This document shows, one piece after another, positions 441 through 28,652 of a stretch of 34,915 bases of DNA (position 1 is the first letter of the stretch; the number at the start of each line of letters is the position of its first letter). The stretch is taken from positions 1 through 34,915 of the IMG/VR virus record IMGVR_UViG_3300036790_000823; one strand, given 5' to 3'. The translations under genes were made by a program, and so were the position numbers. Below the pieces are notes generated by a model. The model was not told where the DNA came from. It saw only the letters and a program-made list of their open reading frames with translations, and did no database searches. Source of the DNA: a virus.

Positions 441-1087
441 GCCAAACCCCCCGTCCCCAGCGCCGCCGCGATCGTGACCCCCGCCGCCGCGCCGAGGAAC
501 AGCTTCCGGTTATCCGCATTCCGCGCCAGCGAGCCGTTGCTCATCTGGCATTCCGCGGCGCACGTCGTCCAGTCCTGCGCGAGCGCCGCCGCGTCGAACT
601 TCGGGAACATCCCCTCGAACGAGCCCCCCATCGCCCAGGACATCGACAGCGCGCCGAGCTGCGCGCACGCGGGCCACGACTCCGCGGCCGGGAAGCGCCG
701 CACGAGGTCCGCCCAGAGCTCGGCCAGCTTCGCGTCCGTCAGCCGGTCGATGTCGGCCGGGTAGAGCCGGATCGTCGTGAGGGGCGCGCACGCGACGGAC
801 TGCACCGATGGCCACGCGTTTTTGACGGCCCACCAGGCGGCGCGGATCGCGTCAGGACTGGCGAGCGTCGCGTCCGTGACCGACACGTGCCACCCGAGCG
901 AAAGCGCCGGCCCAGGCCCCGTGGCGGCGCCCAGCGGGTCCCCGGCGTGCTCGCGGCGTTGGCCGTCGTCGACGAGGTTCCCCCTGCCGCACGTTACGAG
1001 CGAATATCTGTCCGTGTACAGGTACCCGAGCTCGCCCTCGAGGGGGTCCGTGAACGAATCCCAGCACGCCAGGACTTCGGGATTCAT
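437..1087 (-). CDS. Endolysin, T4-lysozyme-type muramidase
   Basis: 216 residues. It cleaves peptidoglycan glycan strands at the end of infection. SFTDPLEGELGYLYTDRYSL followed by VTCGRGN gives Glu17, Asp26 and Thr32, the same spacing (9 and 6 residues) as Glu11-Asp20-Thr26 of T4 lysozyme. The C-terminal SWAMGGSFEGMFPKFDAAAL, AAECQMSNG and ARNADNRKLFLGAA fit the rest of the fold. It is longer than T4 lysozyme (164 residues), with extra sequence at about 40-110. No signal peptide is visible, so it depends on a holin. The start overlaps the receiver stop (ATGA). Confidence 0.9.
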   Translation of the reverse strand: MNPEVLACWDSFTDPLEGELGYLYTDRYSLVTCGRGNLVDDGQRREHAGDPLGAATGPGPALSLGWHVSVTDATLASPDAIRAAWWAVKNAWPSVQSVACAPLTTIRLYPADIDRLTDAKLAELWADLVRRFPAAESWPACAQLGALSMSWAMGGSFEGMFPKFDAAALAQDWTTCAAECQMSNGSLARNADNRKLFLGAAAGVTIAAALGTGGLA

Positions 1088-1461
1088 TCGGTCATCTCCC
1101 GGATCTCGCTGAGGAGCCGGCCCGCGTCGACGGGCTTCGGCAAAAACCGCGTACTGCCGTCGCGGATCCGCTGCGCGCGCACGGCGGTGTCGTGGATATA
1201 GCGCTCGCTGTACCCGCTCACGACGATCACCGGGATGCCACGCGGGATCTTGTTCCAGACGTCGACGCCCGTCATGAGGCCGTCGAGCTCGAGGTCGAGC
1301 AGCACGAGGTCGACGCGCTCGGTGCGGATCAATTCGATCGCGCCTCGCGCCGTCCAGGCCGAGCACACGGTGTGGCCGGCCTCGCGGAGGAGTGTCGTGT
1401 ACAGATCACGGAGCGGGTGGTCGTCCTCGACGACGAGAACCTGCAGGGGTGTTGCGGTCAT
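1084..1461 (-). CDS. Single-domain response regulator (CheY-like receiver)
   Basis: 125 residues, a full receiver domain and nothing else. All phosphorylation residues are present: the acidic pair Asp13 and Asp14 (VVEDDHP), phospho-acceptor Asp56 (LVLLDLELDG), Ser82 (VIVVSGYSE) and Lys109 (FLPKPVD). Receivers take phosphate from a histidine kinase and signal by binding partners. There is no output domain, and I see no kinase in the window. It starts 4 bases after the lipoprotein stop and its own stop overlaps the endolysin start (ATGA), so it is expressed with lysis genes. Acting on a host kinase is the likely but unproven role. Confidence 0.92.
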   Translation of the reverse strand: MTATPLQVLVVEDDHPLRDLYTTLLREAGHTVCSAWTARGAIELIRTERVDLVLLDLELDGLMTGVDVWNKIPRGIPVIVVSGYSERYIHDTAVRAQRIRDGSTRFLPKPVDAGRLLSEIREMTE

Positions 1462-1465
1462 GGGA

Positions 1466-1720
1466 TCACGGCCACTGCTTGGACGCGGCGTCGCACGGGA
1501 CGCCGCACGCCGAGACGGCCCCGCCGTCGAAGAGGCACTGGAGCCACGCCTCACGGTCGGGAAGCGCCATCTCGGCCGCGACCGCCGCGGGGCCCGTGTC
1601 GTCCGGCGCGAGGCACCCGGACGCGACGAGCTCCTGGTAAATCTGGTCCGCCGTGGGCGCGACCGGCTTCGAACAGCCCGCCGCGACCACGAGCGACACC
1701 AGGACTGCGGCGCGCGTCAC
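1466..1720 (-). CDS. Small Cys-containing lipoprotein
   Basis: 84 residues from a GTG overlapping the previous stop (GTGA). TRAAVLVSLVVAAGC is a lipoprotein signal with lipobox Ala-Ala-Gly-Cys16. The mature part has Cys36, Cys62, Cys72 and Cys76 and a helical middle (PTADQIYQELVASGC). It is the second small minus-strand lipoprotein in the lysis cassette, so it is an alternative o-spanin candidate. It could also be a periplasmic inhibitor. I do not recognise the family. Confidence 0.65.
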   Translation of the reverse strand: MTRAAVLVSLVVAAGCSKPVAPTADQIYQELVASGCLAPDDTGPAAVAAEMALPDREAWLQCLFDGGAVSACGVPCDAASKQWP

Positions 1721-8467: not shown

Positions 8468-10489
8468 TCAGGTCCAGCGAAGGATCGCGCCGTCGTACAC
8501 GGCGCGGAACGTTCCGCCTGTGGGCTTCGTAAAATAGGCGGTCGTCGTCGCCGAGAGGCTCGTGTCGTTCGTGTCCTCGACCGTGTAGGCGGCTCCCGAC
8601 GGAACGTTGAGCGTGACGCGGTTGGCTTCGAGCGTCGATGGCGTCGGCTGCCCCGAGCGCTGCAGGTCGTGCTTGAAAATCAGCTCGTACCCGGGCTGGA
8701 TCGTCGGCGGGAGGGCGATAACGTCCCCGGCCACGAAGAGGACCATGGTCGAGTAGGCGGAGGATGGCGGCAGCGTCGCGGTCCCGCCGCTCGTGGAGAT
8801 CGGTGTGCCGGCGCCGCCGCCCACGGGCGACGAGGACCCGCCGCCCCCCCCCACGCTGCCACCGCCGTTGGTCTGCCATGCGGAGACGGCGCCCGGTCGC
8901 GCGATGCCGATCGTGCCCGGGTACTCCTCGGCGACGAAGGAAAGGTCTCCGTTCGGATCCTCCTGCACGGACCGGATACGGACCGGGAAGTTCACGAGCC
9001 CGAGGTTCGGATCGCTCAGCGTCACGAGCGAACCAGGAAGGAGAAGGATGTACCGATACGACGTCTTGAATGTGAAGGTCAGACGGATATAGGCCATCCG
9101 CTTGGCGAAGAGGTCGAGAGAGATCGCCCCCACGACCGTGTCGCAAACGGCATCGCCCTGGACGTCGCTGGCGTCGCGCAGTCCGTACAGGCCGATGAGC
9201 GTCTCGTCCTTCCACTCGATCGGGTTAGTCGCGTAATCGACGTTCCGATCGGAAATCTCGATGCGGACGCGGTTGTAACAGTCGATCGGATCCGCGCGGT
9301 CGACCTGCAAGCCCGGGTCGAGGTAGTCGCTGTTCGACAGGTTGTAGGCCGGGGTGGTATCGGGCGTGTACGTGAAGCCGCCCGCGCTGAGGCTCTCGTC
9401 TCCGAGAGGCACGAAGAAGAAACCGGTGCCTCCGTAGTAAATCCACGTGTTGGTGAGGAGCGCAATGTTGTCAACGAAATCGGTGGCCTTGTCCTGGCCA
9501 GTCAAGAGTGGCGAAAGCCATAGGCCCTGCGCGCCGCAGTAATTGCCGTACGTCGTGAGGCTCGTCGAGTCCAGGTCTCCGGTCTGCAGCCCCATGCCGT
9601 ACGAGACGTTGGTCAGAAAGTCCTCGACGATGTACGCCGGGGAGCTGTCCTTACCGAGCCCGTACGAGTCTCCGGCCGATGCTCCCGAGCCCGTCTTGCA
9701 CGCCTCGAAAGACTGCTGCGGCAAGCTGCCGTCATGACCGCGGTCGTGAAATGGGGTCGCTATGATGGCGATCCCTCTGTATGGCAGGTCCTGGCCTGGG
9801 TAGATGCCCGCCGTCGACGACGCGCTGAAGAACGGCCACGCCGTCTGAGAGCTCGAGCCGGGCGCCACGTAGTAGTAGGGGCTCGGAGGATTCGGGTACG
9901 GAGCGCCCGCCAGCGCCTGCGGATTGGCGAATATCTGACTCCACTGGAGAGCCGTCTGCCCGCTGCCGTTCCACATGCGGTTGATGCCGTTGAGCGAATT
10001 GAGCGGGGCCGTGGAGTCGATCGGTCCTTCGCAGAGGGCGAGCATGGTCGGCACGTACAGCGTGCTGTTGCTGCTCGACAGGTCCGTAGACCCAAACGCG
10101 AACGTGTCTCCGAAGCCTCCGCCGAAGTCGACAATGAGCACGCCGACGAACACGGCACCGAACGCGAAGGCGCTGGCGTCGACCGGGTTCGTCGGGTTCA
10201 CGGTGTTGATTTGCCCAACGCTCATGATTCCGAATCCAACCGGCGTGGAGGCCACGATCGGCAGGAGCGCACTCCCGGAGTTGCTGTTCGGATAGTCGCG
10301 CGTCAGGTCGCTCTGCCAAATCACGTTGGGGGTGATGCGGCGTGTTCCCCAGTGGAGCGGGATGGGAATCGACTGCGCCGACGTGTAACGCTGGATGCCC
10401 GTATACGAAGGCGTGCCGGAGACGGCGAGCGTTGCGCGATTCGGGTCGACGACAAACGTCGACTGACTCCTGAAAAACAGGCCGCTCAC
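8468..10489 (-). CDS. Tail tip / central hub protein (host-specificity protein)
   Basis: 673 residues from a GTG overlapping the DUF2163 stop; a GTG six bases upstream is an alternative, and open frame further upstream is shadow. The N-terminal SIPIPLHWGTRRITPNVIWQ and the GAVFVGVLIVDFG region are typical of hub proteins. So is the late block with VDRADPIDCYNRVRIEISDR, LDLFAKRMAYIRLTF and LLLPGSLVTLSDPNLG. A Gly/Ser linker at about 542-563 leads to a 110-residue beta domain at the C-terminus, likely the receptor-facing part. No NlpC/P60 peptidase gene separates it from DUF2163, unlike in gene transfer agents. Its stop meets the stop of a plus-strand gene within a 10-base palindrome. Confidence 0.85.
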   Translation of the reverse strand: MSGLFFRSQSTFVVDPNRATLAVSGTPSYTGIQRYTSAQSIPIPLHWGTRRITPNVIWQSDLTRDYPNSNSGSALLPIVASTPVGFGIMSVGQINTVNPTNPVDASAFAFGAVFVGVLIVDFGGGFGDTFAFGSTDLSSSNSTLYVPTMLALCEGPIDSTAPLNSLNGINRMWNGSGQTALQWSQIFANPQALAGAPYPNPPSPYYYVAPGSSSQTAWPFFSASSTAGIYPGQDLPYRGIAIIATPFHDRGHDGSLPQQSFEACKTGSGASAGDSYGLGKDSSPAYIVEDFLTNVSYGMGLQTGDLDSTSLTTYGNYCGAQGLWLSPLLTGQDKATDFVDNIALLTNTWIYYGGTGFFFVPLGDESLSAGGFTYTPDTTPAYNLSNSDYLDPGLQVDRADPIDCYNRVRIEISDRNVDYATNPIEWKDETLIGLYGLRDASDVQGDAVCDTVVGAISLDLFAKRMAYIRLTFTFKTSYRYILLLPGSLVTLSDPNLGLVNFPVRIRSVQEDPNGDLSFVAEEYPGTIGIARPGAVSAWQTNGGGSVGGGGGSSSPVGGGAGTPISTSGGTATLPPSSAYSTMVLFVAGDVIALPPTIQPGYELIFKHDLQRSGQPTPSTLEANRVTLNVPSGAAYTVEDTNDTSLSATTTAYFTKPTGGTFRAVYDGAILRWT

Positions 10490-11373
10490 GGAGACACCGT
10501 AGCGGGTGCGGGCACGAACGGGAACGCGCCATAGTTGACGAAATTCCCGTAAAACACGCAGGCGGTGGCCGTCTTGTCGCACCCCTGGAAGACCGTGAAT
10601 GTGTCGCCGGCAGACGGCGCTGCAATGAGCGGATAGGCGAGCGTGACGGCGTTCAGGCCGTTGGCGATGATGGATCGGACCTGTCCCGAGGCGACCCCGG
10701 ACGTCATCCGAAGCGTCCCACCCTTGAGTGTTTGCCCGAGAATGGGCAACACCGTCGAGGATGTGACGACCGAGCGTGTCGATACTGGGCTGGAGCCGAC
10801 GACGCGCGAGGTCGTGTACGTCGCCGCGCTGAGCGTACAGCCTGCGTCGCAAAAGGAGTGACGGCAGCTCGCCTGAAAGAGATTCCGCGGAGCGTTGACG
10901 TCGAGCCGAGAACTCTTCGCCCGAGCCTTGACGAGCGCCCGCGCCCCCACCATCGTCGCGGCCCCCGCGTCGCCGAGGAACAGATCCACCGTCCCCCACG
11001 TCGAGGTGTCGCCCGGCGTCGGCATGAAGACGCGCTGCAAGAAGAACGTCGCGCCGTCGAACAGACCGTTGATGACCTGCGTCTGAAGCGGAGGCCCGCT
11101 CGCGAAGCTCGGCGCGTTGCTGTCGATGTTGAGTTCGAGGGTGTCGACCGACATCGTGTTCTGCACGGACCACTGCCCGCGCGAGATCCACGGCTGGGCG
11201 GGCGAGAAGACGTTGGAGCCGACCGTCAGCGTGGAGTCGTAGGACGTCCACCGGTAGACCGTGCCGCTCAGCAACGTGAGCGTGACGAGGTCCGCAGACG
11301 ACGCGGGCGGTACGAGCGCGCCGGACGCCAACGCGTTCTTGAGCGCCGTCGACGCGGCTCGGAGAAGCGACAC
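10486..11373 (-). CDS. Baseplate hub protein, DUF2163 family
   Basis: 295 residues from a GTG, one base after the previous stop. DUF2163 proteins (gene transfer agent g13-like) form the tail hub. Diagnostic is NLFQASCRHSFCDAGCTLS with Cys170, Cys175 and Cys179. Near the C-terminus, GCDKTATAC has Cys265 and Cys272, followed by GNFVNYGAFPFVP. Equivalent cysteines in the gene transfer agent protein bind an iron-sulfur cluster, so the same is likely here. The N-terminal half (TLTLLSGTVYRWTSYDSTLT, GQWSVQNTMSVDTLELNI) is standard for the family. Its stop overlaps the hub gene start (GTGA). Confidence 0.93.
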   Translation of the reverse strand: MSLLRAASTALKNALASGALVPPASSADLVTLTLLSGTVYRWTSYDSTLTVGSNVFSPAQPWISRGQWSVQNTMSVDTLELNIDSNAPSFASGPPLQTQVINGLFDGATFFLQRVFMPTPGDTSTWGTVDLFLGDAGAATMVGARALVKARAKSSRLDVNAPRNLFQASCRHSFCDAGCTLSAATYTTSRVVGSSPVSTRSVVTSSTVLPILGQTLKGGTLRMTSGVASGQVRSIIANGLNAVTLAYPLIAAPSAGDTFTVFQGCDKTATACVFYGNFVNYGAFPFVPAPATVSP

Positions 11374-22187: not shown

Positions 22188-22484
22188 TCAGTAACCGAGC
22201 GTCTGGACGGTAAAGAGCGTCTCGACGATTCCCGTATCGGCCGGATCGGCGCCGGCTGCGCGCCAGCGCATGACGCCCTGTCCGCCGGGCCGTGCTGAGA
22301 TGGGGATCGTGAAGTCCGCGTGATACGCGCCCACCGAATCGCGGACGACGCTCGGCGTCAGGAGTGTCCCGTCCGGGCAATGCACCGTCAGGACGGGCGC
22401 GGGGCTCGGGTCCGCGAGGCCGACGCCGAACAGCGTGGCGGTCACGCTCGAGCGGACGGACTGGCCAGGGAGGTATCCGGTCAT
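22188..22484 (-). CDS. Small Ig-like virion protein (putative)
   Basis: 98 residues starting on the stop of the repeat-fibre gene (ATGA). The sequence GYLPGQSVRSSVTATLFGVG, VLTVHCPDG, GAYHADFTIP and GVMRWRAAG has the strand pattern of a single Ig- or fibronectin-like domain, as found in small phage head or fibre accessory proteins. Translational coupling to the fibre gene suggests that it works with it, perhaps as an adaptor. There is no signal peptide. The family is not identified. Confidence 0.6.
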   Translation of the reverse strand: MTGYLPGQSVRSSVTATLFGVGLADPSPAPVLTVHCPDGTLLTPSVVRDSVGAYHADFTIPISARPGGQGVMRWRAAGADPADTGIVETLFTVQTLGY

Positions 22485-25393
22485 GCGCTCTCCAGCGTGA
22501 CGTTGAGGAGCAAGAGCGCGCCGTCGCCTTCCGAGAGACCCAGGAGTGCCGCCGAGGCCGCGCTCATCGTCAGGAGTCCCGTCGACGTGACGGCGAAGGT
22601 GAGGAGTGGAGCCGACGATGCGGCGAAGACGAGCAGCGGGGCGCTCGTGGCGGAGAGGACGAGAGGGGCGACGACGAACGGGACTACGACCTGGCGGACG
22701 ACGTCCGTGGGCGTCGCGATGCTGTCGACGAGGGCACGGAGACCGATGTAGCCACGCAGCACGACGTCGACTGGAAGGCCCAGCGACTCCGCAATGGATC
22801 GGGCGCTCCCAGGGAAGCTACTGACGGAGTCGGCGGGGGTCGTGACCGCTTCAGTTGTCGACCGGAAGGCGTGAAGGAGGCGCGCGGCCGCGTCGGCCGG
22901 CGTAGTTACGATGTCGGATACCGAGCGTAGCGCCGCGTCGGCTCTCGAGATGGCGTCGGAAGGCGAGACAATCGAGTCCGCGAGCGCCCGTACGGAGCTC
23001 GACAAGCGCGCTATGGCGTCGTGGGGCGAGTTTACGGAGTCGGCAATGGGACGGGCGCCCACGAAGACGCGGACAACCGCATCCGATGGCGACGGGATGC
23101 TTTCGGAGATTTTGCCGGGGCTGGACGCCTGGACGGCGTCGGTCGGGGTCGGGGTCGACTCGGCGACGGCTCTTGCGGACGCGATGGCGCGCGCGATGGC
23201 ATCAGACGGAGCCGTGAGGCTTTCGGAGAGAGCGCGGAGGTCAGCTACCGCCCGCGCGAGTGCGTCCGAAGGGGTGGCGATCGAGTCGGCTACCGAGCGC
23301 AGGTGAGCGACGAGCCGCGAAGCCGCGTCGCTTGGAGACGAGACGCTCTCCGCGACGGACCGTGCTGTACCCTGCGAACGGGCGACCACGTCACTTGGCG
23401 ACGCAACGGAATCTGCAATGGACCGTCCGCCGGCAAACGACCGGACGAGCGAATCGGAGAGCGCGGCGATCGACTCGGCGACCGTTCGCACGTTCGCGAT
23501 GGCGCGCGTCAGCGCGTCGGAAGGGCCGGCGATGCTTTCAGAGACGGCGCGGGCCTCACCGCGTGTGCCGGAGACCGAGTCCGTCGGAGCAGTGACCGAA
23601 TCGCTCAGTAGGCGTACGGCGGCGTTCGATCGAGCGACGGCGTCCGCGGGGGACGTGACGCTTTCGGACGTCGATCGGGCGATCGTGGTGGCGCGGGCAG
23701 CTGCATCCGTGGGGCCCGCGAGCGCATCGGCGACCGCCCGGTGAAAGGCGGTCGTGCGCGCCGCGGAATCGCTCGGCGCCGTGACGGATTCGGATGTAGG
23801 GCGCGCTACGCCCTGGCTTCTCAGTACGGCGTCCGATGGGACGGTGATGCTATCTGCCACTGATCGAGCGGTAGCCGTGGCGCGCGAAGCGGAGTCCGTG
23901 GGCCCGGTGACCGAGTCGGACAGACTGCGGTGAAGCGCGGCCGCGCGGACGGTACTGTCGGTCGGCCCCGCAACGCTTTCGGAGACCTTCCTCAGACCGA
24001 CGAACAGGCGCGCGGCAACATCCGAAGGCGATGTGACGCTTTCCGAAACCGCGCGCGCACCTACGAACGTCCTCGCGACCGTGTCGCTTGGACCAGAGAC
24101 GCTTTCGGAGATCGCCTTGGTGTAGGCGGTCGAGGACGACGTGCCGAAGATCGAGACAGCGAGAATCGACGCCTGGTCGGCGGAGCTCTGCGTGGCCGTC
24201 GCGGTGTTGGCGCCCGACGACGTGAGGAGCTTGTCCTCCGTCATCGTGTTCGCGCCGGCCAAGAGGCGGAGCTGGAACCCGGTGCCGGCCGCGGGCGTGC
24301 CGTTCACCATGACCGCGAGCGCGAGGATCATCTCCGTCGCTTGCGTCGTCGTGAACGAGCTCGTCGTGATCGAGGTCGTGCTGTTGCTGCCCGCGGTTCC
24401 CTGAACGTCGAAGATCGGGGTCGTTGTTTTGACGCCGTAGTATTCGGCCGCGATGCATTCGAGCTGCGGACTAGACCCGCTGAGCGTCACCGTGACGGTG
24501 TTGGTATTGACGGCGGCCGCCGCGATGTTTGGCGCGGCCCAGATCGTGTGGGTGACCGTCTCGATGCTGCCCGCGTAGGAAAACGGAGTGACGATCTCGG
24601 CGTATGTATTGCCGCTCGTGTCGGTGACACTCGAAACGACACGCGTGTTGTCCGCGTGGATGATGTAGACGACGTTGCAGTTTCCGGCCGTCTGCGGAAG
24701 GTTGCTGTAGGGGATCGCGACGCTGGTCGTCGTCGTGTCGCGCTCGATGCCCTGCACCCACCCCATTGGGTCGGCCGTGAAGCTCGACGTCGTGACGACG
24801 GAGTGCGTGGCGTCTTGCCGGAGAACTACGCCCGCGGTCGATCCGCTGCTGGCCGTAAGGACCTCGCACGCCATCTCGACGAAAAGGTATTCGCCCTTCA
24901 GCGTGATCGCGGCGCCCGGAGCCCACGTGACCGTGAGGTTCTGCGCCGTAGCGGTTGTGACGTTTGACCAGCTCGTCGTGACCTGCGTGGAGCTCGTGAG
25001 CTCACGCATCCCTGTCGCGCCACTCTGATCGATCGATGCCCACACGCGGCATCGAATGGTGCCGCTGCCAGAGGCAGTTACGGTGTTGCCGATGACGGAG
25101 ATCGCGATCGTCCACGAGGCGTTCGCGAACGTGCCCGAGAGAGGAGTCTCGGTCTGGAAACACCCGTTGGTGAGCGCAGCGCCGCCGCTTGGGCGCACGG
25201 TGCTCGTGAATGTCGCGAGGGCTCGACGCGTGCCGTAGAAGAGCTCCGAGTAGGTCGCCGTGGCGGACGTGCCGGGTCGCCACCCAGTGACCATCGTGGC
25301 CGTCGACGGCGCGGTGCCGCCGATCTGGAGCGCGCCGTTCAGCGAGACGGCGCCGGCTTGGGCGTCAACTAGGTAGAGCGTGAGCGCGGCCAT
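22481..25393 (-). CDS. Large fibre-like protein with 22 tandem 21-residue repeats
   Basis: 970 residues. Residues 1-428 are beta-rich. One jelly-roll-like stretch is at about 1-200. A second, at about 215-425, has SVTDTSGNTYAEIV, NTVTVTLSG and AEYYGV, a pattern seen in many secreted and phage proteins. Residues 429-904 are 22 full copies and one partial copy of a 21-residue unit, roughly S-E-S-V-x-x-P-S-D-A-x-x-R-x(5)-R-x-V. Residues 914-963 are about five 10-residue units ending in Leu-Leu-x-Phe/Leu. No signal peptide or enzyme motif is visible. A rod or fibre that projects from the virion is the natural reading. Position in the head module suggests a head fibre rather than a tail fibre. Confidence 0.8.
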   Translation of the reverse strand: MAALTLYLVDAQAGAVSLNGALQIGGTAPSTATMVTGWRPGTSATATYSELFYGTRRALATFTSTVRPSGGAALTNGCFQTETPLSGTFANASWTIAISVIGNTVTASGSGTIRCRVWASIDQSGATGMRELTSSTQVTTSWSNVTTATAQNLTVTWAPGAAITLKGEYLFVEMACEVLTASSGSTAGVVLRQDATHSVVTTSSFTADPMGWVQGIERDTTTTSVAIPYSNLPQTAGNCNVVYIIHADNTRVVSSVTDTSGNTYAEIVTPFSYAGSIETVTHTIWAAPNIAAAAVNTNTVTVTLSGSSPQLECIAAEYYGVKTTTPIFDVQGTAGSNSTTSITTSSFTTTQATEMILALAVMVNGTPAAGTGFQLRLLAGANTMTEDKLLTSSGANTATATQSSADQASILAVSIFGTSSSTAYTKAISESVSGPSDTVARTFVGARAVSESVTSPSDVAARLFVGLRKVSESVAGPTDSTVRAAALHRSLSDSVTGPTDSASRATATARSVADSITVPSDAVLRSQGVARPTSESVTAPSDSAARTTAFHRAVADALAGPTDAAARATTIARSTSESVTSPADAVARSNAAVRLLSDSVTAPTDSVSGTRGEARAVSESIAGPSDALTRAIANVRTVAESIAALSDSLVRSFAGGRSIADSVASPSDVVARSQGTARSVAESVSSPSDAASRLVAHLRSVADSIATPSDALARAVADLRALSESLTAPSDAIARAIASARAVAESTPTPTDAVQASSPGKISESIPSPSDAVVRVFVGARPIADSVNSPHDAIARLSSSVRALADSIVSPSDAISRADAALRSVSDIVTTPADAAARLLHAFRSTTEAVTTPADSVSSFPGSARSIAESLGLPVDVVLRGYIGLRALVDSIATPTDVVRQVVVPFVVAPLVLSATSAPLLVFAASSAPLLTFAVTSTGLLTMSAASAALLGLSEGDGALLLLNVTLESA
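22505..22654 (-). repeat. 30-bp period repeat at the C-terminus of the fibre gene
   Basis: It encodes five 10-residue units: SATSAPLLVF, AASSAPLLTF, AVTSTGLLTM, SAASAALLGL and SEGDGALLLL. The preceding VPFVVAPLVL may be a sixth, more divergent unit. The pattern suggests stacked short strands, such as a C-terminal trimerisation or attachment tip. Confidence 0.7.
22682..24109 (-). repeat. 63-bp period tandem repeat, 22 full copies plus one partial
   Basis: Each unit encodes 21 residues with Glu or Asp at position 2, Ser at 3, Pro at 7, Asp at 9, and Arg at 13 and 19. Only one unit, the 16th, is short (19 residues: AESTPTPTDAVQASSPGKI). The DNA copies have diverged while the protein spacing is kept, so selection has held the period at 21 residues. 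Confidence 0.93.
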
Positions 25394-26805: not shown

Positions 26806-28308
26806 TCAGCTGACCGACGCGCCGAAGAAGACGCCGTCGGTCTGGAAGATCGTATTGCGCACGGCCGCGCTCTGCTGGCCCTGCATGATGAGGAACGACG
26901 CGATGTCGCCCGTGAGACAGAAGCTCGGGCTGATTTGGCTGTTGTCGACGAGCGCGCCAACCACGAGGCTCGTCACTGCCGACTGCGCGGCCGAGAACGT
27001 GCCGACAGGCGTCGTGTGATCGTTGATCCACAGCGTACCGCCAGTCGCCGTGACCTCGCACGCAAACATGTATGGCGTCGTGCTCGAGGCGATCGTGGTG
27101 CTCACCGCGCCGCCCGCGAGTAGGTACTGGTAGAAGTTCGATGCGGACGCGTCGGTCCACAAGTACGGAGTCGGCGAATACCCAAACAGCGACGCGATGA
27201 CGGACGCGCTCGTGTTGTTGCCGACCACGTACGTCGTGAACGGCAGCGTGAGCGAGAGGTCCGTGACGGACGGACCGAACGCGTACGAGAAGTTTTTGCA
27301 GAAAGGGACGTCGCGCGTGCCGTCGAACGTCGCGGTCGACTTGCCGTTGTACGCCGCCTTGGACGATGTCCACGCGGGTCGCCACGTCGTCGACGCGCGC
27401 TGGATGTGATTGCTGTTGCCCGAGAGGTCGTACCAAGCGAGCACCTGGCTGTTCGCGACTCCGCCGTAGCCCGGACGACATCGGAAATACTGGCCCGGCA
27501 GCGGCGTGATGCCGTCGACGAGGAGCGCGGGCGCGGCGTTGACGGCGTCCGTCAGGACACCCGCGGCCGTCATGGCGGCGACGAACAGCGACGCGAGCCG
27601 CGCGACGCCCGCCTGCGTGAGGTGCACGTTGTCGGGCTGGAAGTAGACCGACCCGCCGCTGCCTCCTTGGCCGATGATGGGATCCGCGGTGGCGTCGACG
27701 AGGACGACGCGCACGTTGGTGGCGCCCCACGACGCGTAGTTCGCGCGAATGAGGTTCGCGTAGGCCGTGAAATCGACCGGCGTATCGGTGCGCCCCGTCG
27801 GGGTCATGACGCAGATCGCGTGCTTCGCGAGAGGGCTCGAACGCGCGTTGAGGTCGGAGCTCATCGTCGTGACGTAGGTCGCCATCAGGGTCGCGGTCGC
27901 CGACGCGCTCTGCCCGTAGATCGCGATATCGTTCGAGCCGCCGTCCGTCACGACGCACGCGGGCTGCCCGGCGATGAGGTCCTGCTCACCCGAAGGCGCC
28001 GAGAAACCGCCCCCCTGCGGGGTCGTGTACTGATTGACGATGACGGCGCTCGAGCCGGTGCCGAGCGTCGCGCCCGCGATCGCGAGATTGGGCCCGGCCA
28101 TGAAGCGCTGGCCGAGGAGCGCCGCGAGCTGACGGGGCAGCGCGTACGAGGCTTGGGTCGAATCATTGCCGGCGATGATCGAATCGCCCTGCGGCGTGAT
28201 GACGAACGTCGGTGCAAGCCCCGCGACCGGCCCCGAGGGAAACGGGCTCGCGCTCTGCATCGACGAATAGACCGTCGAGGCCAGCGAGGCCGGGTAGACG
28301 CGGCTCAC
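26806..28308 (-). CDS. SGNH/GDSL hydrolase with lectin-like C-terminal domain
   Basis: 500 residues from a GTG that overlaps the upstream stop (GTGA). The open frame continues upstream, but that part is shadow sequence. Block I is TPQGDSII with nucleophile Ser43, block III is GGSNDI (Asn126, Asp127) and block V is DNVHL (Asp226, His229), giving a complete SGNH esterase. From about residue 285, YDLSGNSNHI, ATFDG, TTYVVG and GTLWIND read as a concanavalin/LamG-like sandwich that probably binds sugar. Phage SGNH proteins usually deacetylate surface polysaccharide. Here the gene lies in the head module, so a capsid-borne enzyme is possible. The substrate is unknown. Confidence 0.85.
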   Translation of the reverse strand: MSRVYPASLASTVYSSMQSASPFPSGPVAGLAPTFVITPQGDSIIAGNDSTQASYALPRQLAALLGQRFMAGPNLAIAGATLGTGSSAVIVNQYTTPQGGGFSAPSGEQDLIAGQPACVVTDGGSNDIAIYGQSASATATLMATYVTTMSSDLNARSSPLAKHAICVMTPTGRTDTPVDFTAYANLIRANYASWGATNVRVVLVDATADPIIGQGGSGGSVYFQPDNVHLTQAGVARLASLFVAAMTAAGVLTDAVNAAPALLVDGITPLPGQYFRCRPGYGGVANSQVLAWYDLSGNSNHIQRASTTWRPAWTSSKAAYNGKSTATFDGTRDVPFCKNFSYAFGPSVTDLSLTLPFTTYVVGNNTSASVIASLFGYSPTPYLWTDASASNFYQYLLAGGAVSTTIASSTTPYMFACEVTATGGTLWINDHTTPVGTFSAAQSAVTSLVVGALVDNSQISPSFCLTGDIASFLIMQGQQSAAVRNTIFQTDGVFFGASVS

Positions 28309-28652
28309 CGGTAGAAGACCGCGATATCGTGGTCCGCCGCGGTGGCGGTCGTCTGCGTGCCCGACTCCGCCGTCGAGACGACGAGCACGAGGCCGTGCAG
28401 GAACGGCAGGCCGCCCGGTGAAAAGAAGTCCGTCCCCATCGTGACCATCGACGGCCCCGCGGGCAGCAGGATCGACAGGATGGGCGTCGAGCCCGCGCCG
28501 TCCGACGGAACCGTGGCCGCGTCGTAGACGAGCACGTAGCGCGCCGACGAATTGCGATTGCGGAACATGGCGCTCATGAGCCACGACGCGCCTTTGACCG
28601 ACCACGAGGCCGCACCCATCGCGGACGCGAAGGTGTTTTCACCAATCGACAT
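28305..28652 (-). CDS. Small putative virion protein
   Basis: 115 residues. A compact, beta-rich protein with motifs such as RYVLVYDAATVPSDG, PGGLPFLHGLVLVVSTAES and a terminal HDIAVFYR. I associate these with small beta-sandwich proteins that recur in phage structural modules, but I cannot name the family. Its stop overlaps the GTG start of the SGNH hydrolase by 4 bp (GTGA), so the two are likely co-translated. It could be a chaperone, base or decoration component for that protein. No signal peptide or membrane segment is visible. Confidence 0.6.
   Translation of the reverse strand: MSIGENTFASAMGAASWSVKGASWLMSAMFRNRNSSARYVLVYDAATVPSDGAGSTPILSILLPAGPSMVTMGTDFFSPGGLPFLHGLVLVVSTAESGTQTTATAADHDIAVFYR

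Follow-up and report, generated by a model that had tools for sequence, protein, structure and literature searches.

A tandem-repeat protein and its linked partner: candidate parts of a modular fibre in an uncultured phage and its relatives

The locus and its genes

The window analysed here is the whole 34,915-nucleotide stretch of the IMG/VR viral record IMGVR_UViG_3300036790_000823. Its virion genes run along the minus strand in the order terminase, a 239-residue ORF, portal, MuF, a 115-residue ORF, a GDSL esterase, a 272-residue protein hereafter called the partner, the repeat protein, a 98-residue ORF, protease, capsid, neck, tape measure and J-type tip genes (Table 1). Family matches identify the terminase (phrog_979, 1e-106), portal (phrog_2662, 3e-78), MuF (Phage_Mu_F, PF04233, 4e-15) and protease (phrog_9427, 1.4e-6), while the capsid was identified through related capsids and neck genes were also recognised. 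These matches agree with the preliminary description of this DNA, which had placed the repeat gene between MuF and the protease and capsid. The partner is encoded on the same strand as the repeat ORF and 7 bp upstream of it, and we refer to the two genes as the cassette. Small ORFs of similar size to the 98-residue one also follow the repeat gene in the gene maps of two other loci, L067 and L199 (L numbers denote the comparison loci). Elsewhere, the window (1084-1554) and L169 (18794-19201, on the 194-kb contig G007) each encode what, by eye, seems to be a small response-regulator receiver protein, with starts of the VLVVEDD or VLIVDDE type.

Table 1. Features of the window and of the comparison loci named in the first column
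Feature	Position	Strand	Remarks
Repeat protein gene	22481..25393	-	970 aa, stop codon included in coordinates; ORF and translation
N1, residues 1-215	24749..25393	-	Predicted beta-rich domain; phmmer against L233
N2, residues 216-425	24119..24748	-	Second beta-rich domain; common to other phages' repeat proteins
22 tandem units, residues 428-887	22733..24112	-	All units of 21 aa except one, which has 19
19-residue unit, residues 743-761	23111..23167	-	Lacks Arg14 and Arg20
Truncated 23rd unit, residues 888-901	22691..22732	-	LVDSIATPTDVVRQ; translation
C-terminal tail	22484..22690	-	About five hydrophobic 10-residue repeats, end GDGALLLLNVTLESA; translation
98-aa ORF downstream of repeat gene	22188..22484	-	Weak MG2-like match only
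Partner protein, 272 aa	25401..26219	-	Kept beside repeat proteins in unrelated phages
GDSL/SGNH-type esterase gene	26806..28260	-	PF00657, E 2.6e-10; start codon uncertain; possible cassette accessory
115-aa ORF between MuF and esterase	28305..28652	-	Without family
J-type tip gene	8468..11251	-	In the window's own tail module
Second conserved gene, L167	12414..13094		About 170-250 aa for the four; FYDWxPVPxDV near start
Second conserved gene, L172	3375..4124		
Second conserved gene, L173	15019..15654		
Second conserved gene, L176	2823..3323		

Relatives of the window capsid were found on 193 contigs (80 of them fetched) and at 72 genome loci, mostly of Alphaproteobacteria. The closest cultured one, from Brevundimonas phage Polewnik, is 51% identical, and there the interval from portal to capsid holds a single 594-residue gene and no cassette. 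A repeat of the same motif was not found by profile among the capsid relatives (the 80 fetched contigs and 72 genome loci); one capsid relative, L067, carries at the corresponding gene position a 20-residue form related to it. No esterase was seen adjoining the cassettes of the other loci inspected.

The repeat array

Translation of the ORF upholds the 22 copies and single 19-residue unit of the preliminary description and adds a partial 23rd copy. Fifteen units of 21 residues (428-742) are followed by the 19-residue unit, six more of 21 (762-887) and then the truncated one. At a lag of 21 the array is identical to itself at 129 of 294 positions, whereas 10,000 shuffles gave 34.9 on average and never more than 58. 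Among the 21 full-length units the acidic residue at position 3 (E or D), Asp10 and Arg20 are present in all, Pro8 in 20 and Arg14 in 19; Asp10 occurs in every unit of the array, the short one included. Positions between these had been described as free to vary. Variable they are, but not fully free, since 1, 5 and 12 are biased towards V, I or L and 2, 4, 11 and 13 are mostly small.

The units are on average only 42% identical in pairwise comparison as protein and 51% as DNA, and synonymous codons are mixed at the fixed residues: all four for Pro, both for Asp, all six for Arg, and both codon families for Ser. Because the codons are mixed and the units so divergent, the pattern is held by selection, as had been proposed for this gene of the virion module, and the units are old copies under purifying selection and not products of recent duplication.

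Relatives and copy number

With the whole repeat protein as query, no match was obtained in viral contigs, phages or the PDB, a failure probably due to masking and to the degenerate nature of the repeat. A search with the portal yielded one relative. Scanning IMG/VR with a degenerate two-unit DNA pattern, a procedure unbiased for gene context, gave ten stretches on nine other viral contigs, each matched one to 18 times. Two pairs of these contigs share one protein each, leaving seven distinct proteins. Their ORFs reach 1838 residues and encode arrays of the type SESITAPSDAVARAFVGARSI. A scan with the partner alone and a second repeat pattern widened the set to about 40 phages. The second pattern, for the 20-residue form, produced 61 further loci, of which 54 have at least three instances of the spacing rule described below in one ORF and 19 have a homologue of the partner in the DNA fetched; a few of the 54 (L228, L234) are unrelated short repeats.

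Counted by a position-specific score that finds zero or one unit in shuffled sequences, the array has 22 units in the window, 26 in L180, 34 in L191, 39 in L186, 50 in L181, 52 in L185 and 62 in L183. L194 has at least 15 and L091 at least four, and about two are seen by eye in L193. The expectation that copy number varies between relatives is thus confirmed, over a range of about 2 to 62. In L191 (15891-18416) identity at period 42 reaches 52% in the array, a sign of recent duplication of a two-unit block. In phage G011 a second repeat protein with 20-residue units like SDSVSVTDTTTRSLQANRLA (L175:18395-19849) lies directly 3' of one with mixed 20- and 21-residue units.

Neither the repeat protein nor the partner has a match in 50,697 phage records, and no PDB relative was found; neither sequence nor experiment links the protein to a characterised fibre. 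Membership of Pfam DUF948 was considered and rejected, the match scoring 17.7 bits against a curated cut-off of 37.2. The cassette type is missing from Pfam, PHROGs, the PDB and the 50,697 phage records, and by the tests made the repeat protein appears to belong to no named fibre family.

A spacing rule for charged residues

The charged residues in 18 repeat proteins obey the rule R-4-[DE]-(6 or 7)-D-4-R-(6 or 7)-R, instances of which are near zero in shuffles. The window has 17 of the form (4,7,4,6), shared with most close relatives, and its shuffles none. L199 and some of the L180 units show the variant 4,6,4,6, L195 and L201 show 4,6,4,7, and L197, L200 and L202 show 4,7,4,7; L203, with period 19, and L205, with a Trp-rich form, depart from the rule. 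Both intervals of four, R-x3-[DE] and D-x3-R, are invariant and the linkers alone shift by one, so that periods of 20, 21 and 22 arise as the linkers vary between 6 and 7. That acidic and Arg residues stand at fixed distances, as noted at the outset, holds both in the conservation of the units and in the rule. What does not hold as an invariant is an exact register of three heptads, such as a coiled-coil rod would need: units of 20 and 22 residues occur in relatives, and L180 mixes 20 and 21.

Each half unit has the pattern charge-x-phi-x-charge-x-phi. Were it a helix, an i,i+4 ion pair would lie opposite a hydrophobic stripe; were it a strand, both would lie on one face, with the small residues outside.

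Terminal domains

The repeat proteins vary in their N-terminal, beta-rich domains. N1 is also present at the N-terminus of the repeat protein of L233 (phmmer, 59 bits, residues 5-202). N2 matches the repeat protein of L186 with an E-value of 0.006; N2-like domains occur in L186, L195, L197, L199 and L206 and, by eye, embedded between repeat blocks in L183, and a profile seeded with such domains also matches L067 (2280-3983), absent from the seed, at 0.0018. By eye, L269 and L270 have LamG-like N-terminal stretches, and in L185, L191, L200 and L216 the repeats begin almost directly at the N-terminus. It is the shaft that is constant in these proteins, globular domains being optional.

At the C-terminus, the tail of the window protein ends in LLLL; L200, L202, L216 and L217 likewise have an acidic stretch followed by LLLL, and other repeat proteins end in different repeats of 7-10 residues. 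An LLLL-type end was considered as a general feature of the repeat proteins and rejected, being found in only 6 of 63, compared with 77 of 7227 other ORFs.

The partner protein

All nine contigs found through the repeat carry a homologue of the window partner, 67-78% identical to it, and in the first five relatives for which flanks were fetched it lies near the repeat gene (64-79% identical). The phages concerned have unrelated capsids and tails: a T4-type capsid and portal occur in one, a contractile sheath in another. As sole query, the partner retrieved 27 loci, on contigs that cover all nine of the repeat contigs, and repeat genes were found downstream of almost every one. A repeat ORF lies downstream of the partner on the same strand in 45 of the 48 loci with room for one, at spacings of -79 to 5,081 bp, a count in which only L180-L206 are unbiased, L085-L091 and L214 onwards having been fetched via the repeat. 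The three exceptions are a truncated duplicate of the L191 contig, the two-unit L193 and L266, where the order is reversed. Partner matches form 41 clusters at 95% identity, fragments included. In the other direction, the partner is absent upstream of some repeat genes for which several kilobases were fetched (L224, L239). The pairing is thus strong from partner to repeat, whereas from repeat to partner it may be less than universal. Scanning about 1,180 bacterial genomes from three groups for the partner gave two weak partial matches.

On one 107,904-base contig (L189 and L091) partner and repeat gene share a strand and lie close to opposite contig ends; their distance would be about 5 kb if the genome were circularly permuted. 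In four of the large phages a second conserved gene precedes the partner (Table 1), a gene not seen in the window.

Predicted structure of shaft and partner

An AlphaFold2 monomer model of six units, built on 98 alignment rows, has a pLDDT of 36 and a pTM of 0.22, with no periodic structure. Such a score would be expected of a disordered chain and of an obligate oligomer alike. The repeats might be read as an intrinsically disordered elastic tether and not as an ordered rod; the units are rich in S, T and A, the window array has no Cys and few aromatics, and the period tolerates 19 to 22 residues. However, the retention of P, D, R and E through synonymous turnover is more than a disordered linker needs, as is a two-interval spacing rule fixed across families, and an obligate trimer would score low as a monomer too. 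We regard the tether as unlikely. Coiled-coil, helix and strand readings of the unit were compared. The unit hydrophobicity has a 3.5-residue component, core positions are V or I rather than L, and i,i+2 couplings are seen, in a covariation between unit positions that is confounded by the relatedness of the units. Together with AlphaFold2 proposing no helix, the preference for V and I and the i,i+2 couplings suggest that the units of the shaft lean towards strands.

The shaft may be compared with the triple beta-spirals of adenovirus type, which have short repeats, Pro or Gly at turns, hydrophobic alternation and a length set by repeat number. A shared fold is putative, no sequence relation was found, and pairs of the R-x3-E and D-x3-R kind are not known as a defining feature there. 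The adenovirus shaft rises by about 1.3 nm per repeat; purely by analogy, a similar rise would make an array of 22 units about 29 nm long and one of 62 about 80 nm.

The partner was modelled with a pLDDT of 59 and a pTM of 0.51. Its best match among solved structures is the fibre-tail adaptor of Ralstonia phage GP4 (8jou), at a probability of 0.99 but with an E-value of 0.043 and 16% identity over 119 columns (about 110 residues), only part of the partner. Among viral predictions the model matches minor tail, tail fibre and collar proteins and a 502-residue structural protein of phage 7-7-1. These fold matches agree, weakly, in pointing to a small beta domain associated with fibres.

Comparison with known capsid fibres

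The head fibre gp8.5 of phi29 (PMC6542822), an extended virion fibre as is proposed for the protein described here, resembles it in having a repeat shaft and small N-terminal beta domains and in being encoded by a capsid-proximal gene. Its stem repeats, however, are helix-turn-helix units of 26 residues (z 5.3), in about three copies by eye and of unrelated motif, whereas the present arrays have 22-62 units, with a period of 21 in the window; and gp8.5 is attached to the head, whereas a head attachment of the cassette product is putative. Homology to gp8.5 was rejected, given the periods of 26 and 21 and the unrelated motifs.

Long flexible capsid fibres are also known in the flagellotropic phages 7-7-1 and phiCbK, the 7-7-1 fibre gene not being named (PMC12796354). 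The proteins gp009 and gp010 of 7-7-1 and gp076 of phiCbK belong, like the repeat protein here, to the virion module and have periods of about 21-22 residues, but their motifs differ (APMADA, GDWxYPxY, GTIxVxxP). Profiles of the repeat, N2 and partner find no match in 7-7-1 or in bases 1-50000 of phiCbK. The repeat proteins of these two phages appear to be parallels, not relatives. In their own right, gp010 and gp009 (L211:4797-7240), structural proteins with repeats of about 21 residues encoded just upstream of terminase and portal, are candidates for the 7-7-1 capsid fibre; gp076 (L210:37549-45948), of 2799 residues, near the head genes and repetitive in its second half with a period of 22, is a possible candidate for the phiCbK head filament.

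Head or tail attachment

The cassette occupies a head module in the window (between MuF and protease-capsid), in L067 (between portal and MuF-protease-capsid) and in L199 (between terminase and portal). In L201 it follows a minor tail protein and in L203 the tape measure and minor tail genes; in L205 it comes after the capsid gene, beside a tail-spike-like protein, and in L167 its neighbour is tail-fibre-like. In the large phages it does not adjoin recognised head genes. Since the cassette is found in both head and tail modules, gene position is not diagnostic.

A capsid fibre, as first suggested for the window, could play a role like that of the phi29, 7-7-1 and phiCbK fibres, which act as tethers to cell or flagellum ahead of any engagement by the tail. 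The head-module placement behind the suggestion stands, and is seen in three phages, but a specifically head-mounted fibre is not supported: relatives in a tail locus, which had been named as evidence against it, are in part what L201, L203 and L205 provide. The 7-7-1 precedent, with long capsid fibres known (PMC12796354) and gp009 and gp010 bearing their own repeats just upstream of the terminase, gives it some encouragement, as does the 502-residue 7-7-1 protein among the partner fold matches, gp011, which adjoins gp010, being of that length. Yet the 7-7-1 repeats differ in motif and give no profile match, no capsid-binding domain was recognised, the L201 and L203 cassettes follow tail genes, and those of the large phages are not beside recognised head genes. 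We consider a capsid fibre possible but doubtful.

A side or tail fibre, or a collar or whisker fibre, whose gene merely happens to be placed in the head module of this phage, would suit L201 and L203, the neighbours in L205 and L167, and the partner fold matches, which are mostly to tail fibre, minor tail and collar proteins and a fibre-tail adaptor. It has to contend with the three head-module placements, the window among them, and with a tail module in the window that already has a J-type tip gene, and is best held as a credible minority view. An internal, ejected or scaffolding-type head protein instead of a surface fibre would also be expected in the head module, as in the window; but lectin-like or beta-sandwich N-termini, an esterase neighbour and tail-module relatives make this most improbable.

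A proposed modular adsorption fibre

Taken together, these results are best read as a modular virion fibre for adsorption, with a shaft set in length by copy number and a partner, moving between phages as a cassette; we give this a probability of about 0.62. N1 and N2 would be optional beta-sandwich domains borne on the long repeat shaft. The repeat and its spacing rule, the linkage to the partner, the range of copy number and the varied gene position are observed; the fibrous shape, the oligomeric state and the roles in adsorption and as adaptor are inferred. Each shaft unit would have a first rigid segment of seven residues, R-x-phi-x-[DE]-x-phi, and a second one, D-x-phi-x-R-x-phi, with three- or four-residue linkers between segments, and the partner would work with the shaft, most likely as a fibre adaptor or cap. 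In this phage the GDSL esterase perhaps assists, acting on surface glycans. The cassette would be inserted at whichever late-gene position is offered.

A bolder proposal, which we put forward tentatively and at rather less than even odds, is that these phages share a widespread new class of fibre, with a new repeat fold (R-x3-[DE], D-x3-R and linkers of three or four residues) and one adaptor, mobile between unrelated virions and ranging roughly thirty-fold in length. If so, it would name the fibre type of dozens of uncultured phages, on contigs from 35 kb to more than 190 kb, in which it is unannotated in current libraries, and the spacing rule would offer structural biologists a precise, testable repeat. 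Whatever its role, the partner is a useful marker gene and would help to find such fibres in any metagenome. Were one kind of shaft and adaptor able to serve virions of several types, that would be relevant to the way in which phages of separate lineages exchange the parts with which they recognise their hosts.
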